From Pseudanabaena sp. M085S1SP2A07QC (GTDB lineage Bacteria > Cyanobacteriota > Cyanobacteriia > Pseudanabaenales > Pseudanabaenaceae), in assembly GCA_020404895.1 (NCBI GenBank), contig JADBWK010000063.1:1-64000 (forward strand): a stretch of DNA of 64,000 bases, read 5' to 3'. The translations under genes were made by a program, and so were the position numbers. Below are positions 1,456 to 27,818 of this stretch, piece by piece; the stretch's first letter is position 1, and each line of letters starts with the position of its first letter. Below the pieces are notes generated by a model, which saw only the letters and a list, made by a program, of their open reading frames with translations, was not told the DNA's origin and did not search any database.

Positions 1456-1585
1456 ATTACTGTTTAGCAAGAACGAGGCTAATCCACTGTAGTGTACCGC
1501 ATAATCTACGGTAAACACATAGACATAACGTACTTTTGATGCTAGAAATATTTTAAATTACATAATTTTGATGCTGTGAGTCACA

Positions 1586-2593
1586 ATGAGCATTCTGGTT
1601 CAAGATATTACCAAGCAGTTTGGCGATTTTTTAGCAGTTGATAACGTTAGTTTGAAAGTAGAGAGTGATTCTTTGGTGGCTTTGCTAGGTCCATCAGGTT
1701 CAGGTAAGTCAACTCTCTTGAGAATTATGGCTGGTTTAGAGGCTCCCGATCGCGGTCAAGTTTGGATTGAAAATGAAGACGCAACTTACCGCTCAGTGCA
1801 AGAACGCCAGATCGGTTTCGTATTTCAGCACTATGCTTTGTTTAAGCATTTGACAGTGCGTAACAATATTGCCTTTGGCTTAAATATTCGTAAGGCATCT
1901 AAAAGCCTAGTTAAACAAAAGGTTGATGAATTGCTGGACTTAATCCAACTCAGAGGATTGGGCGATCGCTATCCATCTCAACTATCGGGCGGTCAGCGGC
2001 AGCGCGTAGCTCTGGCGCGATCGCTAGCAGCGCAGCCCAAAACGCTCCTGCTCGATGAACCCTTCGGCGCATTGGATGCTAAGGTACGGAAGGAGCTACG
2101 CACATGGCTCCGTCAACTTCATGAACAAGTTCATGTGACCACAATTTTTGTAACCCATGACCAAGAAGAAGCGATGGAAGTCGCCGATCAGGTGGTGATT
2201 ATGAACAATGGCAGAATTGAACAAATTGGCACACCTGCCGAAATCTATGATCAACCAGCTTCTGAATTTGTAATGCGCTTTATCGGCGAGACTAACATTA
2301 TCTCTAGCGCCCGTCGCCATTTCCCCGATCTTGAAATTGCAGATCATCATCAAGTATTCTTGCGTCCCCACGATCTGGCGATTAGAGCCGAACCAGAAGA
2401 AACCTTTGCCCCTGCAACTGTCAGCTATGCCTTTAATCTCGGTTGGGAAGGTCAAGCAGAATTAGTATTGTCAGACAACCAAAAGTTGATTGTAAAGTTG
2501 GAACGCGATCGCTTTGACAGTCTCTCGCTCTATCCCCAAAAAGAAGTCTATGTCAAACCTCTAAAAACCAAAATCTTTGCTGAAGTTGCTTAG
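1586..2593 (+). CDS. cysA: Sulfate/thiosulfate ABC transporter ATPase CysA
   Basis: This 335-residue ABC ATPase has a Walker [10 protein letters not shown] at residues 35-43, a signature [13 protein letters not shown], Walker [20 protein letters not shown] and a switch His in [13 protein letters not shown]. The C-terminal third is a TOBE-like regulatory domain, giving the usual CysA length. It energises sulfate uptake together with SbpA (periplasmic binding) and CysT/CysW (membrane). Those permease genes lie 24 kb away at 26-27.8 kb rather than next to cysA, which is unusual. Assignment to sulfate rather than another CysA-like substrate rests on family resemblance plus the neighbouring cysR, cysK and sbpA. 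Confidence 0.9.
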
Positions 2594-2632: not shown

Positions 2633-3205
2633 CTAAATTTCATAATGCCATTGTTCAGTAGACTCTGCCAAAAATCTGAGCTTGCGTCCTTTACGAGACA
2701 AGAACCCAATCTTCTCAAGATCATTGATAATGCGCGTGACTGTGACGCGAGTAGAGCCGATTAATTCCGCGATTTCTTGATGGGTTAATTGCAGACCGAT
2801 CAACCTGCCATGACGCTGATCGTCTTCACCAAAGCGATCAGTCAGCCAAGCTAATAACAACCTTAAAGCCTCATCTTTAGCTCGGCTATGGGCAATTTTC
2901 AACAAAAACTCACTGGTTTGGTTACGACGGATAATCACATCGACATGATCGCCCCACTCCGATCGCGGGATTTCTATTAACTGCACATCCGTTAGGCATT
3001 CCATTTCATGAGGATGCAAGTTAGATAATTCACTGCCAATGAGATCGCCCTCAGCCCATAAACCTGAGCAAATTACTTGACCATCCTCATTCCATGTGAG
3101 CGATCGCACCACGCCCGACTCAATTTTCCAGAGGTAATTAGTTTTGCGAGGTAGCATTTCACGACGCTTATAGGTAGTGCCAGTGGTCTTTTCAAGATAA
3201 ATCAT
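2633..3205 (-). CDS. cysR: Crp/Fnr-family regulator, CysR-like
   Basis: About 190 residues. The N-terminal cyclic-nucleotide-type beta-roll (LWKIESGVVRSLTWNEDGQVICSG...) is followed by a winged helix-turn-helix near the C-terminus (LTHQEIAELIGSTRVTVTRIINDLEK). CysR, known from Synechococcus elongatus, is a Crp-family protein needed for growth on alternative sulfur sources and is encoded among the sulfate permease genes. The location between cysA and cysK fits that role. I chose ATG 3205 (MIYLEKTTG), since the longer frame starts inside the control region shared with cysK. The shared two-part element of the divergent region begins only 17 bases upstream of this start, so autoregulation is plausible. 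Confidence 0.8.
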   Translation of the reverse strand: MIYLEKTTGTTYKRREMLPRKTNYLWKIESGVVRSLTWNEDGQVICSGLWAEGDLIGSELSNLHPHEMECLTDVQLIEIPRSEWGDHVDVIIRRNQTSEFLLKIAHSRAKDEALRLLLAWLTDRFGEDDQRHGRLIGLQLTHQEIAELIGSTRVTVTRIINDLEKIGFLSRKGRKLRFLAESTEQWHYEI

Positions 3206-3221
3206 CAGATACCCTATCGAC

Positions 3222-3298
3222 AAACAGTAGATTTTATTTGTATTACGTTGAAAAGTATTGTATCTTACTAAGTACGGTATTCCCACGAAGTTACCGTA
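3222..3298 (+). promoter_or_regulatory. Two-part sulfur control element in the cysR/cysK divergent region
   Basis: Box 1 is AAACAGTAGATTT at 3222-3234. A TATTGTAT sequence that could be a -10 box follows at 3256-3263. Box 2 is the palindrome TACGGTA-N12-TACCGTA at 3273-3298. The same order and near-identical spacing (51 bases from box 1 to box 2) recur upstream of both sbpA genes and of ssuD. The orientation points toward cysK. That this is an operator is inferred from conservation. Confidence 0.75.
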
Positions 3299-3355: not shown

Positions 3356-4318
3356 ATGAAAATTGCTCAAAATATTACGCAACTCATCGGCGGTACGCCC
3401 CTCGTTGCTCTCAATAACATCCCTAAAAAAGATGGTTCTCTCGCCAAAATTGTCTTGAAATTAGAAAGTATTAATCCTTCTTCTTCTGTTAAGGATCGTA
3501 TCGGCTTAGCGATGATTGAAGATGCTGAAGCTCAAGGTTTGATTAGTCCTGCCAAAACTATATTGGTGGAGCCAACTTCGGGTAACACAGGGATTGCCTT
3601 AGCAATGGTGGCGGCGGCTAAGGGCTATCGTTTGATTTTGACTATGCCTGAAACTATGAGCTTAGAACGCCGAGCTATGCTCAGAGCCTATGGTGCAGAG
3701 CTAGAGTTGACCAATGCTAGTGAAGGGATGCGTGGCGCGATTCGGCGGGCTGGAGAAATCGCTAGTTCTACGCCCGATGCTTATATGCTGCAACAGTTTA
3801 ATAATCCAGCCAATCCTGCTGTGCATCGGCGCACCACTGCGGAAGAAATTTGGAATGATACGGATGGGCAAGTGGATATTGTGATTGCGGGTGTGGGAAC
3901 TGGCGGCACGATTACTGGGGTTGCTGAAGTGATTAAGCAGCGTAAGCCGAGTTTTAAAGCGATCGCTGTGGAGCCATTAAATAGTCCTGTGTTAGCTGGT
4001 GGTACACCAGGAGCGCATCGGATTCAAGGCATCGGGGCAGGATTTATCCCCCAAGTTTTACGCACGGATTTGATTGACGAAATTATTGGTATTTCTGATG
4101 ATGAGGCGATCGCTTACGGTCGTCGCTTAGCCCGTGAGGAAGGTTTACTATCAGGGATTTCGTCAGGTGCAGCTCTTGCGGCGGCGATCGCTGTGGGCAA
4201 GCGGGAAGAAAATCGCGATCGCTTAATAGTGGTAATTCAACCAAGTTTTGGTGAGCGCTATCTTAGTACACCTCTATTCCAAGAAGTTGAATTTGCGACT
4301 TCTGCTTCTACTAGATAA
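3356..4318 (+). CDS. cysK: Cysteine synthase (O-acetylserine sulfhydrylase)
   Basis: A 320-residue fold-type II PLP enzyme that makes L-cysteine from O-acetylserine and sulfide. The PLP lysine lies in [11 protein letters not shown] (Lys46). The substrate loop [11 protein letters not shown], the phosphate-binding [10 protein letters not shown] and the SGISSGAA motif are all intact. Length and motifs are those of CysK/CysM. It is the first gene downstream of the regulatory element at 3222-3298, and a CymR-like Rrf2 regulator follows 89 bases later. In firmicutes CymR forms a complex with CysK, so this enzyme may double as a sensor of cysteine status. That second role is inference. Confidence 0.93.
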
Positions 4319-4332
4319 AAGTATTCATCTCT

Positions 4333-4373
4333 AAATCAATTAATGCTGTGCTACGCATAGCATTAATTGATTT
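4333..4373. terminator. Hairpin after cysK
   Basis: An inverted repeat with about 15-base arms around ATGCTGTGCTACGCATAGCAT, ending in a T-run, lies between cysK and the Rrf2 gene. It probably terminates or attenuates cysK transcripts. Confidence 0.7.
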
Positions 4374-4407: not shown

Positions 4408-4842
4408 ATGGAACTATCTTGTAAGGTGGATTACGCCTGTATTGCTCTGATGCAATTAGCTATACGTCATGGACAAGGACAACCAATATCCGTTAACGAA
4501 ATTGCTCATAGTCAAAATATTCCTATTCGCTACCTCGATCAAGTCATGGGAATGCTAAGGAGAGCAGGTATTATTAATAGTCAAAGGGGAGCCAAAGGAG
4601 GCTATCACCTTGCTCAAGAACCTTGGCAAATTAAAATCATTGACGTAGTGATTGCTCTTAATGGTAACGACTATAGAGAATCTCCAAACGAAAACCTAAC
4701 CACACCTGAGAAGTCTGTAATCTTGGATATGCGAGAGCTTGCAAGAAAAGGGGCTGCTGATGTTTTGAGCAATCACACTTTAGAAGATTTAGTGAGAAAA
4801 TGTGAGGAGAAAAAACGTTCCGATATCATGTTCTATATTTGA
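4408..4842 (+). CDS. Rrf2-family regulator, CymR-like
   Basis: This 144-residue Rrf2 winged-helix protein has an N-terminal HTH (ISVNEIAHSQNIPIRYLDQVMGMLRRAGIINSQRG) followed by GGYHLAQEP. It lacks the three-cysteine cluster that binds Fe-S in IscR and NsrR. It therefore resembles CymR, the firmicute repressor of cysteine metabolism, which works as a complex with CysK. It sits directly after cysK and ends in the tetrapeptide MFYI. A C-terminal isoleucine is how serine acetyltransferase inserts into the CysK active site, and as I recall B. subtilis CymR has the same ending. Regulation of the local sulfur genes is inference from context. I have left the symbol blank because cyanobacterial members are poorly characterised. 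Confidence 0.8.
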   Translation: MELSCKVDYACIALMQLAIRHGQGQPISVNEIAHSQNIPIRYLDQVMGMLRRAGIINSQRGAKGGYHLAQEPWQIKIIDVVIALNGNDYRESPNENLTTPEKSVILDMRELARKGAADVLSNHTLEDLVRKCEEKKRSDIMFYI

Positions 4843-4846
4843 ATTT

Positions 4847-4887
4847 CCAAATAAAAGAGCGGTGCTTCGCGCCGCTCTTTTATTTGG
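4847..4887. terminator. Bidirectional hairpin between the Rrf2 gene and sbpA1
   Basis: Arms CCAAATAAAAGAGCGG and their complement surround a TGCTTCGCG loop, between two convergent genes. It has the unique-stem plus GCGGYGCTTCGCGCCGC core seen repeatedly later in the window. Confidence 0.85.
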
Positions 4888-4933
4888 GTTTTATGCCTTA
4901 ACTAGGACGACAGCTAGCTATAAGAATAAGTTT

Positions 4934-6115
4934 CTATCGCTTGATTTTGGCTTGAATTTGGTCAAAGGCTGCGCCATCAGCAAAGAATTTCTTATTGATG
5001 GCATCCCAACCACCAAGATCCTTGACGGTTGAAAGATTTTTAACCACAGGATAAAGCTCAACAAATTGCTTTTCCTTGGCTACAGTTTCATCAACAGGAC
5101 GAAATCCAACCTTGGCAAATTCAGTTTGAGCTTCAGGAGAATATAGGAATTTCACAAAGGCTTCGGCGACTTCCTTAGTGCCATGCTTAGCAGTATTTTT
5201 ATCAACCACAGCGATCGGATTATCGATAGAGAAGTTAATTTCGGGAATTACATAATTAACCTTAGTTCCTTTTTGGGAAGCAAGAATGATTTCATTCTCA
5301 TAGTTAATCAGGGCATCGCCTTGACCTTGTTTAAAGAAAGCATCAGTAGCTTCTCTAGCATCTTTAGTCAGAATCGGTACATTGGTATATACCTTAGTTA
5401 ATGCTTCTAAAGCCTTTTCATCACTACCACCTTTCTTAAAAGCAGCATTCCAGAGGGCAAGGAAGTTCCATCGAGCTACACCTGATGTTTTAGGATCAGC
5501 CGTAATTAGGCTAATGCCATCTTTCTCCAGATCAGCCCAGTCTTTAATGCTCTTGGGATTGCCATCGCGAGTTACAATCACAGGCACAGACTTAGAAACG
5601 ATGCCATCATTGGGATATTCTTGTTCCCAGCCTTTGTCAATTAGTCCAGCTTTTTCGATTTTACTAGTATCAGCCGCTAGCGCCAGATGGACAATATCGG
5701 CTTCAAGTCCATCAATGACTGCACGAGTTTGAGAACCTGAACCACCATAACTTTGTTTAAAGGTAACTTTTTGGTTTTGTTCTTTTTGCCATTTCTCGAC
5801 AAATTTAGGAATAATTGCTTCGTGAGCCTGCTTAGTTACAGCAAAAGACACAAGAGTTAGTTCAACATCCTTTTTGGGTGTGCCTGCGGGTGATGCTGCT
5901 GTAGTTGTTTTGGACGCAGGACTACCTGCGGTAGGAGGAGGCGTAGGTGTGGTAGCAGTGCAGGCTGCCATGGTGACGCTGATGAGTGCGCCTGCAAGAA
6001 AGAAGGAAATAAATTTACGTGCAAACTGACGGCTAAATGTATTGCTGATTAGACTAGCGATCGCTTGAATTGCCGATTTGGACTTACCCAAAGGCTGCTG
6101 ATACCTTGAACTCAT
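4934..6115 (-). CDS. sbpA: Sulfate-binding lipoprotein SbpA (copy 1)
   Basis: This 393-residue periplasmic sulfate-binding protein has an N-terminal basic region, a hydrophobic stretch and a lipobox (SVTMAAC, Cys52), then a Thr/Pro-rich linker and the binding domain. SbpA-family signatures include TLVSFAVTKQAHEAIIPKF, QSYGGSGSQTRAVIDGLEADIV and GVARWNFLALWNAA. The mature protein contains no methionine and no cysteine other than the lipidated one, a sulfur-sparing composition expected of a protein made in bulk during sulfur starvation. It is nearly identical in its binding domain to copy 2 at 24805-25989. The upstream control element is also conserved between the two copies. Confidence 0.93.
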   Translation of the reverse strand: MSSRYQQPLGKSKSAIQAIASLISNTFSRQFARKFISFFLAGALISVTMAACTATTPTPPPTAGSPASKTTTAASPAGTPKKDVELTLVSFAVTKQAHEAIIPKFVEKWQKEQNQKVTFKQSYGGSGSQTRAVIDGLEADIVHLALAADTSKIEKAGLIDKGWEQEYPNDGIVSKSVPVIVTRDGNPKSIKDWADLEKDGISLITADPKTSGVARWNFLALWNAAFKKGGSDEKALEALTKVYTNVPILTKDAREATDAFFKQGQGDALINYENEIILASQKGTKVNYVIPEINFSIDNPIAVVDKNTAKHGTKEVAEAFVKFLYSPEAQTEFAKVGFRPVDETVAKEKQFVELYPVVKNLSTVKDLGGWDAINKKFFADGAAFDQIQAKIKR

Positions 6116-6140: not shown

Positions 6141-6217
6141 TACGATATCTTAGTGGGATTACCGTATTTAAACACAATACAATAATTTTGAATAATGCAC
6201 AAAAAAATCTACGGTTT
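6141..6217 (-). promoter_or_regulatory. Two-part sulfur control element upstream of sbpA1
   Basis: Read on the minus strand, AAACCGTAGATTT (6217-6205) is followed by TATTGTAT and then TACGGTA-N12-TATCGTA (6166-6141). The palindrome ends 25 bases before the sbpA1 ATG, the same distance as at sbpA2. Confidence 0.8.
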
Positions 6218-6403: not shown

Positions 6404-6484
6404 AAACCGTACATTTGTTGATCTTATGTAATTGTTTATGTAATACTCTCTTAATAACTACGATTTCACCGTGTATTTACCGTA
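6404..6484 (+). promoter_or_regulatory. Two-part sulfur control element upstream of ssuD
   Basis: AAACCGTACATTT (6404-6416) is followed 55 bases downstream (start to start) by TACGATT-N12-TACCGTA (6459-6484), 21 bases before the ssuD start. The whole 390-base gap 6116-6505 appears to be the divergent control region of sbpA1 and the ssu genes, and I see no gene in it. Confidence 0.75.
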
Positions 6485-6505: not shown

Positions 6506-7687
6506 GTGCAGGTTTTTTGGTTTATTCCTACCCATGGTGATGGACGCTATCTGGGAACAAGTGTTGGCGGACGCTCAACCGATCTGAGCTACCTTCAACA
6601 AATCGCCCAAGCTGTCGATCGCCTTGGATATGTGGGCGCACTTTTGCCAACGGGGCGCTCCTGCGATGATGCGTGGGTAGTTGCATCATCATTGATAGCT
6701 GTTACGCAACGCATGAAGTTTTTGGTTGCTGTGCGTCCAGGACTAATGTCCCCAGGGGTAGCGGCAAGAATGGCGGCAACTTTCGATCGCCTATCGGGTG
6801 GTCGGTTATTAATTAACGTCGTCACAGGCGGCGATCCTGTGGAATTAGCGGGCGATGGCTTACACCTCGGTCACACAGAAAGATACGAATTAACCGATGA
6901 GTTTTTGACCGCTTGGCGTGAAATCTGTTCGGGAACTTCTGATTTTAAAGGTGAATACTTAGATATTCGTGATGGCAAATTGCTATTTACACCAGTTCAA
7001 AAGCCCCATCCTCCACTTTGGTTTGGTGGATCGTCTGAAATTGCCCAAAAAATAGCCAGTAAACATATTGACACCTATCTCTCGTGGGGTGAGCCGCCTG
7101 CACAGGTTGCCGAAAAAATTAATGCTGTTAAAAAACTCGCCGATCAAGAGGGAAGAGAGATTAAGTTTGGTATCCGTCTCCATGTCATTGTGCGTGAGAC
7201 GAAGAGCGAAGCTTGGGAAGCTGCCAATAATCTGATTCGCTATGTTGATGAAGCATCTATCCAAAAAGCGCAACAGGTTTATGCCCGTATGGATTCCGTT
7301 GGACAGCAACGGATGTCTCAATTGCATGGCGGCAAACGTGAGAATTTAGAAATCAGTCCCGATTTGTGGTCAGGGGTTGGCTTGGTACGTGGCGGCGCAG
7401 GAACAGCCCTTGTGGGAGATCCTGACACGATCGCTAAGAGAATGCAGGAGTATGCGGATATTGGCATTGAGAGCTTTATTTTCTCTGGCTATCCCCATTT
7501 AGAAGAAGCCTATCGCGTTGCCGAGTTGTTATTCCCTCGATTGCCTTTGGATCATGTTCCCGATCGCGATCGCCAAGTGATGACAGGACCTTTCGGTGAG
7601 ATTTTGGCTAATGATGAGCTTCCCCAGACGGTTAAGCCCATTCAAAACAAATCTCCTTCCAAAGAACTTCAACCAACGGTGGATTAA
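6506..7687 (+). CDS. ssuD: FMNH2-dependent alkanesulfonate monooxygenase
   Basis: A 393-residue bacterial-luciferase-type monooxygenase that cleaves alkanesulfonates to aldehyde and sulfite using FMNH2 from SsuE. The GTG start gives [18 protein letters not shown], the typical SsuD N-terminus. [17 protein letters not shown] and [19 protein letters not shown] are further family motifs. AGGAGA lies 5-10 bases before the start. It is the first gene of a long same-strand series, and its stop codon abuts the ATG of ssuC. A sulfur-type control element lies just upstream, so induction by sulfur limitation is expected. Confidence 0.93.
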
Positions 7688-8551
7688 ATGCAACATTCCT
7701 TTGATAATCCTATCGATCAGCCTAATAATCGATCGCCCAATAAATCTGACAATCCATCCCTTAAACAGCGATCAGGAAATGTTGCCTACAAAGTTTGGCG
7801 TGGCTTTTTGCCTTGGCTAGTACCAATCATTACTGTAATTGTTTGGCAGATTCTTTCGCAAGGAGGGGTAATCTCGGCAAAAGTTTTGCCTGCTCCCCTT
7901 GAGGTCTTGCAAGTTGGGATTAAGCTAACCCAGTCAGGAGAGCTAGTCAAGCATCTAGCCATTAGTGGCACGCGAGCTTTTATTGGTTTTGCGATCGGTG
8001 GTGGTATTGGTTTTTTGTTGGGATTAATCAACGGTTCATCTGCGATCGCCGAAACTTTGCTTGACACCTCAATGCAAATGCTTCGCAACATTCCTCACCT
8101 TGCACTAATTCCTTTGGTCATTCTCTGGTTTGGCATTGGTGAAGAAGCAAAAATCTTTCTCGTTATCATCGGCGTAATGTTTCCCATTTATCTCAATACC
8201 TATCACGGTATTCGCACCGTCGATTCAGGCTTAATTGAGATGGGTCGAGTCTATGGTCTGAATCCTCTCCAAATATTTTGGAAGATTGTGCTTCCCGGAG
8301 CCTTACCTTCCGTTCTTATTGGAGTTCGTTTTGCTTTAGGCATCATGTGGTTAACCCTAATTGTTGCCGAGACGATCGCCTCTGATTCAGGGATTGGCTA
8401 TCTGGCGATGAATGCAAGGGAATTTTTGCAAACCGATGTGGTGGTATTTGCGATTCTTCTCTATGCCTTACTTGGCAAACTAGCTGATGTCGCCGCCCGA
8501 TTTTTAGAATCAATTTTGCTGCAATGGCATCCTTCCTACGCTTCGGCATAG
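7688..8551 (+). CDS. ssuC: Sulfonate ABC transporter permease
   Basis: A 287-residue BPD_transp_1 permease. Hydrophobic segments start near residue 37 (GFLPWLVPIITVIVWQIL), and the EAA loop lies around EMGRVYGLNPLQIFWKIVLPGALP. It forms the membrane channel for SsuA-delivered sulfonates, with SsuB on the cytoplasmic side. The ATG directly follows the ssuD stop, which suggests translational coupling. Confidence 0.92.
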   Translation: MQHSFDNPIDQPNNRSPNKSDNPSLKQRSGNVAYKVWRGFLPWLVPIITVIVWQILSQGGVISAKVLPAPLEVLQVGIKLTQSGELVKHLAISGTRAFIGFAIGGGIGFLLGLINGSSAIAETLLDTSMQMLRNIPHLALIPLVILWFGIGEEAKIFLVIIGVMFPIYLNTYHGIRTVDSGLIEMGRVYGLNPLQIFWKIVLPGALPSVLIGVRFALGIMWLTLIVAETIASDSGIGYLAMNAREFLQTDVVVFAILLYALLGKLADVAARFLESILLQWHPSYASA

Positions 8552-8598
8552 GCAGGATGCCAACAAACTTAACATGTTCAATCTAAGGGATAAAAACT

Positions 8599-9378
8599 AT
8601 GACTGTATCTACGGCAACTATTGACGGGATCAGCTTAAAAATTGAGAATCTAGCCAAGCAATTTGGAAACCATATTGTTTTGCATGATCTCAGCTTAACC
8701 ATTAATGTGGGTGAATTTGTGACAATTGTTGGGCGCAGTGGTTGCGGTAAAACTACTCTGCTAAGACTGATTGCAGGATTAGAAAAGCTTACAAATGGTC
8801 GCATCTTTCTCGATGAGCAAATCACGACTTCTCTCCATCCAGAAATCAAAATCATGTTTCAGGACTCTCGTCTTTTACCTTGGCAAAAGGTACTCGATAA
8901 CGTGCGTCTGGGACTAACAAAAGATTCACGCTCCAAAGCAATGGAAGTGCTGCATCATGTGGGTTTAGCAGCGAAAGCAAAAGAATATCCATCCACTCTA
9001 TCAGGTGGGCAAAAACAAAGAGTAGCCCTTGCCAGAGCTTTGGTAAGCAATCCGCGTTTACTCCTGCTAGATGAGCCTTTAGGTGCTCTTGATGCCTTAA
9101 CTCGCATTGAGATGCAGAGGCTCTTAGAAAATCTTTGGCAAGAGCAACAATTCACCGCTTTCTTAATTACCCACGATGTCGAAGAAGCGGTTGCCTTAGG
9201 CGATCGCGTAATTCTCCTCGAAGAAGGTCGAGTTGTGCTGGATGTGAAGATTGACTTACCCCGACCCAGAGCAAGGGGTAATGCTGAATTTGCGTCTCTC
9301 GTCGATCGCATCCGCGATCGCGTCATGGGAAATAATACAGGTCATCATAATTTTGACCTCCAGTTAAATGCTGCCTAA
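8599..9378 (+). CDS. ssuB: Sulfonate ABC transporter ATPase
   Basis: This 259-residue ATPase has Walker A GRSGCGKTT (45-53), signature LSGGQKQRVALARAL, Walker B LLLDEPLGALD and switch His in LITHDVEEAVALGD. The sequence IMFQDSRLLPWQKVLDNV is typical of the SsuB/TauB/NrtD subgroup. It powers SsuC-mediated import. The gene lies 47 bases after ssuC on the same strand. Confidence 0.93.
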   Translation: MTVSTATIDGISLKIENLAKQFGNHIVLHDLSLTINVGEFVTIVGRSGCGKTTLLRLIAGLEKLTNGRIFLDEQITTSLHPEIKIMFQDSRLLPWQKVLDNVRLGLTKDSRSKAMEVLHHVGLAAKAKEYPSTLSGGQKQRVALARALVSNPRLLLLDEPLGALDALTRIEMQRLLENLWQEQQFTAFLITHDVEEAVALGDRVILLEEGRVVLDVKIDLPRPRARGNAEFASLVDRIRDRVMGNNTGHHNFDLQLNAA

Positions 9379-23617: not shown

Positions 23618-24646
23618 GGCTCAATAGGTGTTTCGGGGAGGTAAAGAGAGTAGTGAGTCTAGCAAAGCACTCAGCAAAGCTTTGCCCCTCCTCTTGGCAT
23701 TATGAACAAACTCAAAGAAGCTCCAATACAAAGGTAACTTTTCTTGAGAAATACCACGATGAGGTCGTAACCAAGAGCGTAAAAGCGACCAGAAGCCTTC
23801 TATTGTATTGACATAAACTTCTCAAAAGCCATCACCATCTTCATCTCTTGCATATTCTCCCACTCCATGACAAACAGATTTGTGAGCATAGCCCCAAACT
23901 TGTAAAGGGTAATAGATAGCATATTCGTCAGTGTAAACCATAGTACCAAGAGCAATCGTTGCTTTAATCAGAGGCTCAATAGTCCGTTGTTGAACGTTTT
24001 CCATCATGCGAATTACCACTTCACCACCACGCTGAATCATGCCGAAGATGGGTGGTTTTTCTTTTTCAAGTGTCCCCCGCCCCCCCTTGAGGCGATTACG
24101 TCTTCCTTTGCGACTTTTTTTAACTGCTTCGGAGTTGCCTTTGTGTCCTGCTGTCACATATACCTCGTCACACTCGACTGTGCCAGATAAGTTTACTTCA
24201 GGCTTACTTAGGTCAATACCTTCTCTCAATTGGGTGGTCATATCTTGCACCACATCCTTATCTAGGTCTAGTTCTTGGGCAATTTGTCGGTTTGAGAGGT
24301 TTAATCCCATCAAGTATAGGCACAATATCCACATCCGTAGTGGTTGATGGTGTCCTGCAAATATTGTGTCGGTTAAATCGTCAAAGTTAATGCTGCAAGT
24401 TTTACACTGGTATCGTTGACGGGCAGGTTGTGTTTCATCTTTGCCTCGCTTGATTACCTCTGTACTTTTACATTTTGGACAACTTACTCCTCCTGTCCAT
24501 CTCATCTGACGAACTGTTTCGTAACATTTTTCATCATCAATTAGATGGGTTAAGTTCACACTCAGCATAGTGTTGCTGCTTCTGGATTTCGCTACAATTT
24601 TATCAATTTCTCCCTTTCTTTACTTCCCCGAATCACCTATTGAGCC
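23618..24646 (-). mobile_element. IS1595-family (ISXO2-type) insertion sequence
   Basis: Terminal inverted repeats GGCTCAATAGGTGTTTCGGG (left) and GGCTCAATAGGTGATTCGGG (right, reversed) bound a 1029-base element with a single transposase frame. I could not find an obvious 8-base target duplication. It lies just upstream of the sbpA2 control region. Confidence 0.85.
23621..24568 (-). pseudogene. IS1595-type transposase interrupted by a stop codon
   Basis: Residues 1-248 contain a zinc-ribbon (CPKCKS...CKTC) and a DDE-type catalytic domain (TVECDEVYVTAGHKG, MVYTDEYAIYY). After DEDGDGF an in-frame TGA occurs at 23822-23824. Reading through it gives EVYVNTIEGFWSLLRSWLRP and HRGISQEKLPLYW, the expected C-terminal part with its catalytic Glu, ending at 23621. 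The element is therefore probably inactive on its own. Confidence 0.85.
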
Positions 24647-24701: not shown

Positions 24702-24779
24702 AAACCGTAGATTTTACTTGCGTCTTGCCCAAAAGTATTGTATGGTGTTTAAATACGGTAATTACATCAAGATATCGTA
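24702..24779 (+). promoter_or_regulatory. Two-part sulfur control element upstream of sbpA2
   Basis: AAACCGTAGATTT (24702-24714), TATTGTAT (24736-24743) and TACGGTA-N12-TATCGTA (24754-24779) lie in the same order and spacing as at sbpA1. GGAGG (24791-24795) and the GTG start at 24805 follow. Confidence 0.8.
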
Positions 24780-24804: not shown

Positions 24805-25989
24805 GTGAGTTCAAGACAACATCCTTTTAGCAATTCAAAACTTGGGATCAAGGCGATCGCTTGCTTATTTGGCAATATATTTAGTCATAAATGGGGACGT
24901 AAATTTGTCTCTTTCTTCTTGGCTGGTGCATTGATCAGTGTCACGATGGCAGCTTGCACAGCCACTACCGACACCAAACCCACAGCAGCAACTAGCCCAA
25001 CAACAGGTGGTAGTCCTGCCGCTCAAACCAAACCAGCAGGCGAACCTAAAAAGGATGTTGAATTAACCCTTGTATCTTTTGCTGTAACCAAACAAGCCCA
25101 CGAGGCAATTATCCCTAAATTTGTCGAGAAATGGCAAAAAGAACAAAACCAAAAAGTTACTTTTAAACAAAGCTATGGTGGTTCAGGTTCACAAACCCGT
25201 GCTGTAATTGATGGACTAGAAGCTGACATTGTTCACCTCGCTCTTGCAGCTGATACTAGCAAAATTGAGAAAGCAGGCTTGATCGATAAAGGTTGGGAAA
25301 AAGAATACCCTAACGATGGAATTGTCTCTAAATCTATTCCAGTACTAGTGACCCGCGATGGAAATCCTAAAAACATTAAGGATTGGTCAGATTTAGAAAA
25401 AGATGGCATTAGCCTAATCACCGCCGATCCTAAAACTTCGGGTGTGGCTCGTTGGAACTTCCTCGCTTTGTGGAATGCCGCAGTCAAAAAAGGCGGTAGC
25501 GATGAAAAAGCGCTAGAAGCATTGACAAAAGTATATACAAATGTGCCAATTTTGACCAAAGACGCCAGAGAAGCTACCGATGCTTTCTTTAAGCAAGGTC
25601 AAGGCGATGCATTGATCAATTATGAAAACGAGATTATTCTTGCTTCTCAAAAGGGTCAGAAGGTTAACTACGTCATTCCTGATGTGAATTTCTCCATTGA
25701 TAATCCGATCGCTGTAGTTGATAAAAATGTCGCAAAACATGGAACCAAAGAAGTCGCAGAAGCTTTTGTGAAATTCCTTTATTCGCCTGAAGCCCAAACT
25801 GAATTTGCTAAAGTTGGTTTCCGTCCTGTAGATGAGACTGTGGCTAAAGAAAAACAATTTGTCGATCTTTATCCTAAAGTAAAAGATCTTTCAACCGTTA
25901 AAGATCTTGGTGGTTGGGATGCGATCAACAAAAAATTCTTTGCTGATGGCGCAGCTTTTGACCAAATTCAATCAAAAATTAAGCGTTAG
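24805..25989 (+). CDS. sbpA: Sulfate-binding lipoprotein SbpA (copy 2)
   Basis: A 394-residue GTG-started protein, nearly identical to copy 1 through the binding domain. It differs mainly in the signal peptide and Thr/Pro linker. Lipobox SVTMAAC is followed by TLVSFAVTKQAHEAIIPKF and QSYGGSGSQTRAVIDG. Apart from the lipid Cys, the mature part has neither Met nor Cys. It heads the sbpA-cysT-cysW gene set, the classical permease order, and is preceded by the same control element as copy 1. The copy-1 duplicate lies 19 kb away in the opposite orientation. Confidence 0.93.
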   Translation: MSSRQHPFSNSKLGIKAIACLFGNIFSHKWGRKFVSFFLAGALISVTMAACTATTDTKPTAATSPTTGGSPAAQTKPAGEPKKDVELTLVSFAVTKQAHEAIIPKFVEKWQKEQNQKVTFKQSYGGSGSQTRAVIDGLEADIVHLALAADTSKIEKAGLIDKGWEKEYPNDGIVSKSIPVLVTRDGNPKNIKDWSDLEKDGISLITADPKTSGVARWNFLALWNAAVKKGGSDEKALEALTKVYTNVPILTKDAREATDAFFKQGQGDALINYENEIILASQKGQKVNYVIPDVNFSIDNPIAVVDKNVAKHGTKEVAEAFVKFLYSPEAQTEFAKVGFRPVDETVAKEKQFVDLYPKVKDLSTVKDLGGWDAINKKFFADGAAFDQIQSKIKR

Positions 25990-26071
25990 AGACTAAATTT
26001 AGGTTATCCATGAACAAGGGGCTTAATCCCCTTGTTTGATACAAGATTAATATAAGTTTAATGCAAGCTTT

Positions 26072-26950
26072 GTGAAAATTAAAGATGACATGGTAACAAC
26101 ACCTTCCGCTATAACCAACCGAAAGCAAAGATCTAACCCTTTTCTAAAGCTTCTCGGTAAAATCCCTTGGACATGGGTAATTACTTTTACTTACCTCGCC
26201 TTTTTGCTGATTTTACCGATCGCCGCATTACTAACAAAAGCTGCTACTGAGCCGTTAGAGAGTTTCTGGAAAACAGCGACTAGCCCACTAGCTCTATCTA
26301 GCTATGAGATTACCTTTGTCACCGCCTTTGCCGCCGCCGCTGTTAATGGCATATTCGGAACTTTGATTGCATGGGTTTTAGTGCGTTATGAGTTCTTTGG
26401 CAAAAGGTTCCTAGAAGCTGTAGTAGATTTACCGTTTGCTCTGCCCACGGCGGTCGCAGGTTTAACCCTAGCAACGGTCTATAGTGAAAAAGGTTGGATT
26501 GGATCAATGGTTGCACCGTTCGGCATCAAAATTGCTTTCACACGGATTGGGGTGTGGATCGCGATGATGTTTATCTCCCTACCTTTTATCGTGCGGACAG
26601 TTCAGCCCGTACTCACCGAATTAGAAAAGGAAATCGAAGAAGCAGCTTGGTCATTGGGAGCTTCTAAATTACAAACTTTTATACAGGTAATTCTCCCGCC
26701 GCTCACACCTGCTATCTTGACAGGCGTAGCCCTCGGCTTTTCCCGTGCTGTCGGTGAATATGGCTCCACGGTAATTATTGCCTCCAATACTCCATTTAGG
26801 GATCTAATCACGCCAATTTTGATCTTCCAACGTCTAGAGCAGTATGACTATGTGGGCGCAACAGTGCTTGGAACGGTAATGTTAGGCATTTCTTTTGTGA
26901 GCTTACTCGCAATTAATCTATTACAAGCATGGAGCAAACGCTATGGCTAA
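26072..26950 (+). CDS. cysT: Sulfate ABC transporter permease CysT
   Basis: A 292-residue permease with six hydrophobic segments (WVITFTYLAFLLILPIAALL first). DLPFALPTAVAGLTLATVY and EEAAWSLGASKLQTFIQVILPPLTP (EAA loop) are CysT signatures. It pairs with CysW in the membrane and uses CysA at 1586. The start is uncertain: GTG 26072 or ATG 26090, neither with a good ribosome-binding site. It overlaps cysW by 8 bases. Confidence 0.92.
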   Translation: MKIKDDMVTTPSAITNRKQRSNPFLKLLGKIPWTWVITFTYLAFLLILPIAALLTKAATEPLESFWKTATSPLALSSYEITFVTAFAAAAVNGIFGTLIAWVLVRYEFFGKRFLEAVVDLPFALPTAVAGLTLATVYSEKGWIGSMVAPFGIKIAFTRIGVWIAMMFISLPFIVRTVQPVLTELEKEIEEAAWSLGASKLQTFIQVILPPLTPAILTGVALGFSRAVGEYGSTVIIASNTPFRDLITPILIFQRLEQYDYVGATVLGTVMLGISFVSLLAINLLQAWSKRYG

Positions 26951-27818
26951 TCTCAATTCTTCCATAATCGATCGCCCCAGCGATTTACCAGAACCCACAA
27001 AAATTGCTAAAAAGAAAAGTTGGGTTCCGACTATATTAATTGCGATTTCTTTTATTTATCTGGGACTAGTGCTGCTAATTCCTGCGGCAAACGTTTTTGT
27101 CACCGCCTTTAGCAAAGGCTTCAGCCCCATATTGGCGGCGGTTCAACGTCCTGACTTCCAAAATGCAATCAAGCTCACCGTCAGCCTAGCGGTAATTGCC
27201 TTACCTCTAAATACGATTTTTGGTTTAAGTGCTGCTTGGGCGATCGCTCGTAACAAATTTCCTGGAAAAGCTTTATTACTTAGCATCATCGATTTGCCAT
27301 TCTCGATTTCGCCTGTAGTTGCGGGTTTAATGATCGTCTTGCTATATGGTCGTCTAGGCTGGTTTGGCTCATGGCTGGAATCGAATGATATCAAGATCGT
27401 ATTTGCCTTTCCTGGAATGTTACTTGCCACCATTTTTGTGAGTATGCCCTTTATTGCTCGTGAAGTGATTCCTGTACTTGACGAAATGGGTACTGACCAA
27501 GAAGAAGCTGCACGTACCCTTGGCGCAAATGATTGGCAAATTTTCTGGCGAGTTGTTGTTCCCAATATTCGCTGGGGACTACTCTATGGATTGGTTTTAA
27601 CCAATGCTAGAGCCATGGGTGAATTTGGAGCTGTATCTGTAGTTTCAGGCAATATCGCCAGTAAGACCCAGAGTTTACCGCTCTTTGTTGAAGAAACTTA
27701 TAAACAGTATGAAACGGAAGTAGCTTATTCCGCAGCTGTGCTGCTTGCATTGCTGGCAGTAGTTACACTAATTCTCAAAGAAATCCTAGAACGCAGAACC
27801 AGTAAAGCTCAAAAATAG
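26943..27818 (+). CDS. cysW: Sulfate ABC transporter permease CysW
   Basis: This 291-residue permease has six hydrophobic segments. It contains DLPFSISPVVAGLMIVLLYG, EEAARTLGANDWQIFWRVVVP (EAA loop) and RAMGEFGAVSVVSG, all CysW-type. It overlaps cysT, so the two subunits are coupled. No cysA follows; the only ATPase gene of this type in the window is at 1586. Confidence 0.92.
   Translation: MANLNSSIIDRPSDLPEPTKIAKKKSWVPTILIAISFIYLGLVLLIPAANVFVTAFSKGFSPILAAVQRPDFQNAIKLTVSLAVIALPLNTIFGLSAAWAIARNKFPGKALLLSIIDLPFSISPVVAGLMIVLLYGRLGWFGSWLESNDIKIVFAFPGMLLATIFVSMPFIAREVIPVLDEMGTDQEEAARTLGANDWQIFWRVVVPNIRWGLLYGLVLTNARAMGEFGAVSVVSGNIASKTQSLPLFVEETYKQYETEVAYSAAVLLALLAVVTLILKEILERRTSKAQK

Follow-up and report, generated by a model that had tools for sequence, protein, structure and literature searches.

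The Rrf2-family protein encoded 3' of cysK in Pseudanabaena sp. M085S1SP2A07QC belongs to a cyanobacterial subfamily that ends without exception in the motif M[YF][YF]I. With a probability of about two in three, it acts as a CymR-type repressor that docks its C-terminal isoleucine in the active site of the cysteine synthase CysK, with CysK and O-acetylserine (OAS) serving as the sensor. The gene was found in a stretch of 64,000 nucleotides, positions 1 to 64,000 of contig JADBWK010000063.1, in the following called the window (Table 1). We infer binding by the tail, control by OAS and repression, and the steps would be as follows. With plentiful sulfur and low OAS, the flexible MFYI tail would be inserted into the active site of the CysK encoded alongside, and Rrf2, as a repressor bound to CysK, would stay on its operators. 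Under a shortage of sulfide, OAS would accumulate, occupy the CysK site and release Rrf2, and the genes for cysteine synthesis and sulfur uptake would be expressed once the regulator is freed. In most cyanobacteria, the target of Rrf2 would be the rrf2-cysK operon itself; in Pseudanabaena, as for the related copies that have a CysR-like crp gene as neighbour, Rrf2 probably governs a broader sulfur regulon via TACGGTA-N12-TACCGTA.

By analogy to Bacillus, cyanobacteria probably sense their sulfur supply via a CysK-regulator complex of the same kind. If true, the phylum-wide pair of Rrf2 and CysK is a cyanobacterial sulfur-status sensor, and enzyme-gated repression is extended beyond the Firmicutes. 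The literature searched, which did not include the 1995 CysR and 2008 pANL papers, contained no earlier report of a cyanobacterial CymR and no described cyanobacterial cysteine or sulfur-status sensor besides the Crp-type CysR. New aspects should be the competition between CysE and the regulator, expected from the isoleucine tails of both, and the conserved operators of the subfamily.

Gene neighbourhood and linkage to cysK

The product of rrf2 matched the Pfam Rrf2 model (PF02082) with 109 bits against a cut-off of 30 (E=2.6e-31), and a score of 100.9 against a cut-off of 73.3 places it in the Rrf2 superfamily (TIGR00738). The gene starts 89 bp 3' of cysK within a sulfur-gene cluster, and the C-terminal sequence ..KKRSDIMFYI is followed by a TGA stop. 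Cysteines are present only at positions 5, 11 and 132, the IscR cluster loop is free of cysteine, and none of 125 relatives had at least two cysteines in residues 85-112. An Rrf2 protein that lacks the Fe-S cysteines of IscR, follows cysK and ends MFYI had been described in the sequence-only reading, and the open reading frame, the cysteine positions and the family scores confirmed this description. The neighbouring cysK was identified by TIGR01139 (460 bits, cut-off 351). Together with the transport and alkanesulfonate genes, the genes around rrf2 form a sulfur cluster. Translation of crp likely begins at the downstream ATG, because the GTG of the longer reading frame falls within the 26-bp dyad.

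Table 1 Coordinates of genes, candidate operators and stem structures in the window
Feature	Position	Strand	Remark
26-bp dyad upstream of cysA-type ATPase gene	1507..1532	.	1 mismatch
Sulfate ABC transporter ATPase, CysA type	1586..2593	+	curated family match
Crp/Fnr-family regulator, CysR-like (crp)	2633..3205 (ORF from 3286)	-	likely ATG start 3205
26-bp dyad TACGGTA-N12-TACCGTA between crp and cysK	3273..3298	.	perfect; candidate operator
cysK, cysteine synthase A	3356..4318	+	TSGNTG loop residues 74-79, Gln147, PLP-loop SVKDR at 44
AT-rich 19-bp inverted repeat between cysK and rrf2	4333..4373	.	pairing kept in close relative
rrf2, CymR-like Rrf2-family regulator	4408..4842	+	ORF, ATG start, 144 aa
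Codons of C-terminal MFYI tail	4828..4839	+	proposed CysK-active-site ligand; no exception among 124 distinct homologues; shared with CymR of S. aureus and Listeria
Terminator-like 20-bp stem 3' of rrf2	4846..4888	+	
Sulfate-binding protein gene	4934..6115	-	
26-bp dyad upstream of sulfate-binding protein gene (- strand)	6141..6166	.	1 mismatch
26-bp dyad upstream of ssuD	6459..6484	.	2 mismatches
ssuD-ssuC-ssuB	6506..9378	+	alkanesulfonate use
26-bp dyad upstream of second sulfate-binding protein-cysT-cysW operon	24754..24779	.	1 mismatch
Second sulfate-binding protein gene with cysTW	24805..27818	+	

The hairpin between cysK and rrf2 carried compensating changes in both arms in one close relative (L205); another relative had a different hairpin at this place and others had none. 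Directly before the second sulfate-binding protein operon, a transposase-like open reading frame was present (23822-24568; zinc-ribbon, DDE type by eye).

The linkage of rrf2 to cysK is widespread. In 90 of 125 loci, cysK was located no more than 700 bp away on the strand of rrf2, and 35 rrf2 copies were not beside cysK. The gene order in these loci was nearly always rrf2-cysK, the order cysK-rrf2 being seen only in the genus of the window; three Pseudanabaena genomes had both genes in one frame with a single stop between them. For comparison, cymR adjoins cysK in C. acetobutylicum (PMC3828012). Plasmid ABRG53c of Pseudanabaena sp. ABRG5-3 had the order cysA, crp, cysK, cysE, rrf2. In its cysK-cysE-rrf2 operon (L441:8147-10438), the cysE stop and the rrf2 start had a one-base overlap, and the CysE encoded there ended DGAGI. 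On the sulfur plasmid pANL of S. elongatus PCC 7942 (NC_007595.1), a member of only 33 % identity kept the MFYI end, which makes this strain a ready test system. The gene (L442:9947-10381; product WP_011055159.1) was situated between the srp genes, which comprise cysK, an EpsC-type serine acetyltransferase ending GGGI and the SrpI encapsulin, and a second cysK.

Relationship to CymR, IscR and other Rrf2 proteins

The best curated equivalog for Rrf2 was CymR (NF047409) with an alignment reaching the last residue, at 92.6 bits against a cut-off of 195. For IscR (TIGR02010) the score was 71.6 against 207.55 bits, and the three-cysteine [2Fe-2S] loop was missing. All 53 relatives scanned matched the CymR and IscR models alike. 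The predicted fold had its best matches in B. subtilis CymR and T. potens IscR. Among the PDB relatives, the CymR proteins of S. aureus and Listeria (3T8R, 3LWF; both MFYI) and T. potens IscR (MYYI) aligned through the tail, and the match to E. coli IscR ended before it. In a midpoint-rooted tree based on few columns, the tail-bearing cyanobacterial proteins formed a branch of their own (100/100) apart from CymR, T. potens IscR and the Slr0846-like proteins; within it, the window-type Rrf2 grouped (90/94) with the usually Crp-linked copies and not with the common rrf2-cysK group. Membership in the CymR family was ruled out by the curated score and by the placement outside the CymR branch. The term CymR-like, proposed from the sequence, is appropriate for the kind of protein, as true CymRs have the same tail, but does not extend to the equivalog. 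Most likely, Rrf2 works like CymR without being one.

Several features are shared with the CymR of B. subtilis, S. aureus and Listeria: the Rrf2 fold, the lack of cluster cysteines, the adjacency of the regulator gene to cysK known from some clostridia, sulfur genes (cysK, ssu) as likely targets and, for S. aureus and Listeria, the identical terminus. Different from the CymR system, the CysE of the same cyanobacterial cells retains a terminal isoleucine, and the operator of the common group looks local to rrf2-cysK rather than global. T. potens IscR (4CIC), an IscR by its PDB title, has the fold and the MYYI end in common with the cyanobacterial proteins, whereas the [2Fe-2S] cysteine loop is missing from the 125 cyanobacterial relatives, whose genes in the loci examined are associated with cysK rather than with iron-sulfur assembly. 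Slr0846-like proteins belong to the same phylum and superfamily and are co-resident in the same genomes, but differ in their ends (FIV, FVV or FVI), in their position away from cysK and in their separate branch. The Slr0846-type row of one alignment was a composite, and no statement made here is based on it. CysE and the CdiA toxin share the C-terminal isoleucine motif that, according to the literature, enters the CysK active site; neither of the two is a transcription factor, CysE being an acetyltransferase. CysR of Synechococcus elongatus is a cyanobacterial sulfur-gene regulator with a relative beside cysK in the window, but belongs to the Crp family instead of Rrf2, and we know of no link between CysR and CysK.

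The C-terminal tail and CysK

The sample comprised 386 cyanobacterial genomes, 100 of which had an Rrf2 homologue at E<=1e-20. All 124 distinct proteins of the cyanobacterial subfamily, chosen mostly by similarity to the window protein including its tail, had M-[YF]-[YF]-I as the last four residues before the stop codon, whereas residues -5 to -12 were variable. The tail agreed in 80 of 80 loci of named genomes. A tail-blind check with the Pfam Rrf2 model, which ends upstream of the tail, was run on 49 genomes, and 15 of 15 subfamily members among the loci read had MYYI. The members of the other cyanobacterial Rrf2 subfamily, 15 from this check and the copy in the window's own genome, all ended FIV, FVV, FVI or similar (16/16), and none of these 16 had cysK as neighbour. 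Judged by this conservation, the tail is not due to chance. Conservation of the terminal isoleucine among cyanobacterial homologues had been suggested as a check on the CysK hypothesis; the outcome went further, with the whole MYYI/MFYI motif invariant and cysK linkage widespread. The genus Pseudanabaena has a second MYYI-tailed rrf2 copy with no adjoining cysK (C163 in the window's genome).

CysE, the CdiA toxin and CymR have been cited as CysK partners with C-terminal isoleucine motifs; in CysE, the terminal isoleucine supplies most of the binding energy, OAS competes, and CysE-type peptides are competitive CysK inhibitors (PMC12895370). The binding of B. subtilis CymR to DNA is stabilised by CysK, with OAS as the signal (PMC2940859, PMC3828012); a canonical cysteine synthase complex has been cited as absent from this organism (PMC12895370). 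Docking in CysK is supported because MFYI is identical in S. aureus and Listeria CymR and because, of the two cyanobacterial subfamilies, only the cysK-linked one has the tail, and it is on this comparison the most likely reason for the invariance. The structure predicted for the window protein alone, close to CymR and T. potens IscR in fold and with a non-helical, flexible end of lower confidence, also counts in favour of docking.

The tail may have been conserved for another reason, such as dimer packing, stability or another partner, e.g., a cysteine desulfurase, and Rrf2 may regulate cysK locally in the ordinary way and respond to a different signal, e.g., the redox state via Cys5 or Cys132. 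The MYYI end of T. potens IscR shows that such a tail also occurs outside the regulators known to sense CysK. Cys5 was present in 74 and a cysteine at position -16 to the end in 87 of the 124 tail-bearing proteins, and a candidate operator at a 1-Cys peroxiredoxin promoter in three genomes points in the same direction. The prediction for a fusion of CysK and Rrf2 is also compatible with this alternative, although it speaks neither for nor against docking. For AlphaFold2, the natural cysK-stop-rrf2 read-through of P. biceps PCC 7429 was used with the stop read as Gly and an 89-row alignment: the CysK and Rrf2 domains formed, the linker and the CysK C-terminus were poor, and docking was not confident, the last six residues lying undocked with a pLDDT <50. 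However, the cysteines are not universal, the four-residue block is invariant amid drifting surroundings, as expected of a buried ligand, and MFYI/MYYI tracks the cysK-linked subfamily and is identical in CymR, a known CysK partner. We consider such other causes unlikely and CysK binding preferable.

Nearly all cyanobacterial CysE proteins with a readable end, that of Pseudanabaena included, terminated in ..GI (..GAGI, ..GGGI). An Ile-tailed CysE and an Ile-tailed Rrf2 are therefore found in the same cells and both would share, or compete for, the CysK pocket, which would distinguish the cyanobacteria from the CymR system. Tentatively, we propose a three-way contest in which CysE and Rrf2 compete for the CysK active site, OAS and sulfide act as referees, and the competition couples the cysteine synthase complex to transcriptional control. 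The Ile-tailed CysE alongside Rrf2 raises a new and directly testable question. The direction of control may even be reversed, Rrf2 and CysE chiefly regulating CysK activity by plugging its active site, with gene control being secondary; the ..GI ends, the occurrence of cysE in the same operon in some strains and the competitive inhibition by CysE-type peptides fit such an action on CysK. Regulators are, however, normally far less abundant than enzymes, and the winged-helix domain and the conserved operators point to DNA binding, so that we regard a primarily enzymatic role as very improbable compared with CysK-dependent repression.

Candidate operators

A palindromic EM search of the rrf2 upstream regions, compared with shuffles, found two motifs, where a search for exact dyads had yielded weak hits only. 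The candidate operators of the subfamily are conserved and 26-28 bp long. In the common group, ACAAACCCCAGTGGAGAACCGGAGTATA-like sites preceded rrf2 in 62 of 74 loci. The pattern was present in 10 of 12 genomes searched, about once per genome and at rrf2-cysK, and its reversed control had no match in these 12 genomes; from this distribution, the common rrf2-cysK looks like a locally autoregulated operon. Three genomes of one genus (L334, L338 and L340, near 1501) had the common-group site in front of a 1-Cys peroxiredoxin gene as well, which hints at an oxidative-stress target.

For the Crp-linked rrf2 copies, the EM motif cTACggTAAaTCgATcGAtTTAccGTAg was the same dyad as the 26-bp site of the window, which lies upstream of cysK and crp and not directly upstream of rrf2. 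Outside the window, further copies of the dyad preceded a sulfurtransferase and a TauE-type exporter operon. The positions of the dyad in front of sulfur genes are observed, and by this recurrence it marks a sulfur regulon. The sequence alone does not make the dyad rare, as the reversed control was even commoner at two mismatches. The sequence-only reading had named a 26-base candidate operator and compared its length to the CymR site: the dyad is real and repeated before sulfur genes, but relatedness to CymR does not follow from its length, and Rrf2 is no more than its probable binder.

The dyads may be sites of the neighbouring CysR-like Crp protein, or of a LysR protein, with Rrf2 controlling little or nothing through them. 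The crp gene adjoins cysK and usually also the related rrf2 copies, two genomes that lost cysK-rrf2 at this place keep the dyad upstream of crp, and CysR is a known regulator of sulfate in S. elongatus (PMC12016511). Against a Crp site, genomes without crp retain the dyad in front of the gene for the sulfate-binding protein, and in seven related loci where the sequence stretch examined contained no crp, the dyad precedes rrf2. Judged by the sequence, the half-site spacing is unfit for a CRP dimer, and the recognition helix of the Crp protein appears to be NtcA-like. The number of dyads drops where rrf2 is lost and crp is kept: with one mismatch, genomes with a window-type rrf2 had on average 8.0 sites, crp-only genomes 2.25 and the rest 1.3 (p=0.003 versus crp-only, 6e-7 versus all others, values that are indicative only because the genomes are related). 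The dyad count thus follows the window-type rrf2 more closely than it follows crp. Genomes that lack both crp and window-type rrf2 still have the dyad in front of the sulfate-binding protein gene; they retain the other Rrf2 with an MYYI tail, and in the genus the promoter of this other rrf2 has the half-site ACCGTAG in common with the window dyad. A Crp site is the less likely assignment, doubtful without being far-fetched, and the comparison leans towards Rrf2, which we infer to be the binder of the 26-bp dyad.

A natural case of rrf2 loss was encountered in genome G437 (L217 from 1501), where the window-type rrf2 is broken, its reading diverging after about residue 62, and cysK and crp are still present; this genome had just 2 dyad sites. 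The NtcA-like recognition helix of the Crp-family protein (2633-3286, minus strand) reads STRVTVTRIINDLE, and a GTA-N8-TAC sequence (GTATTGTATCTTAC) adjoins the 26-bp dyad near crp.
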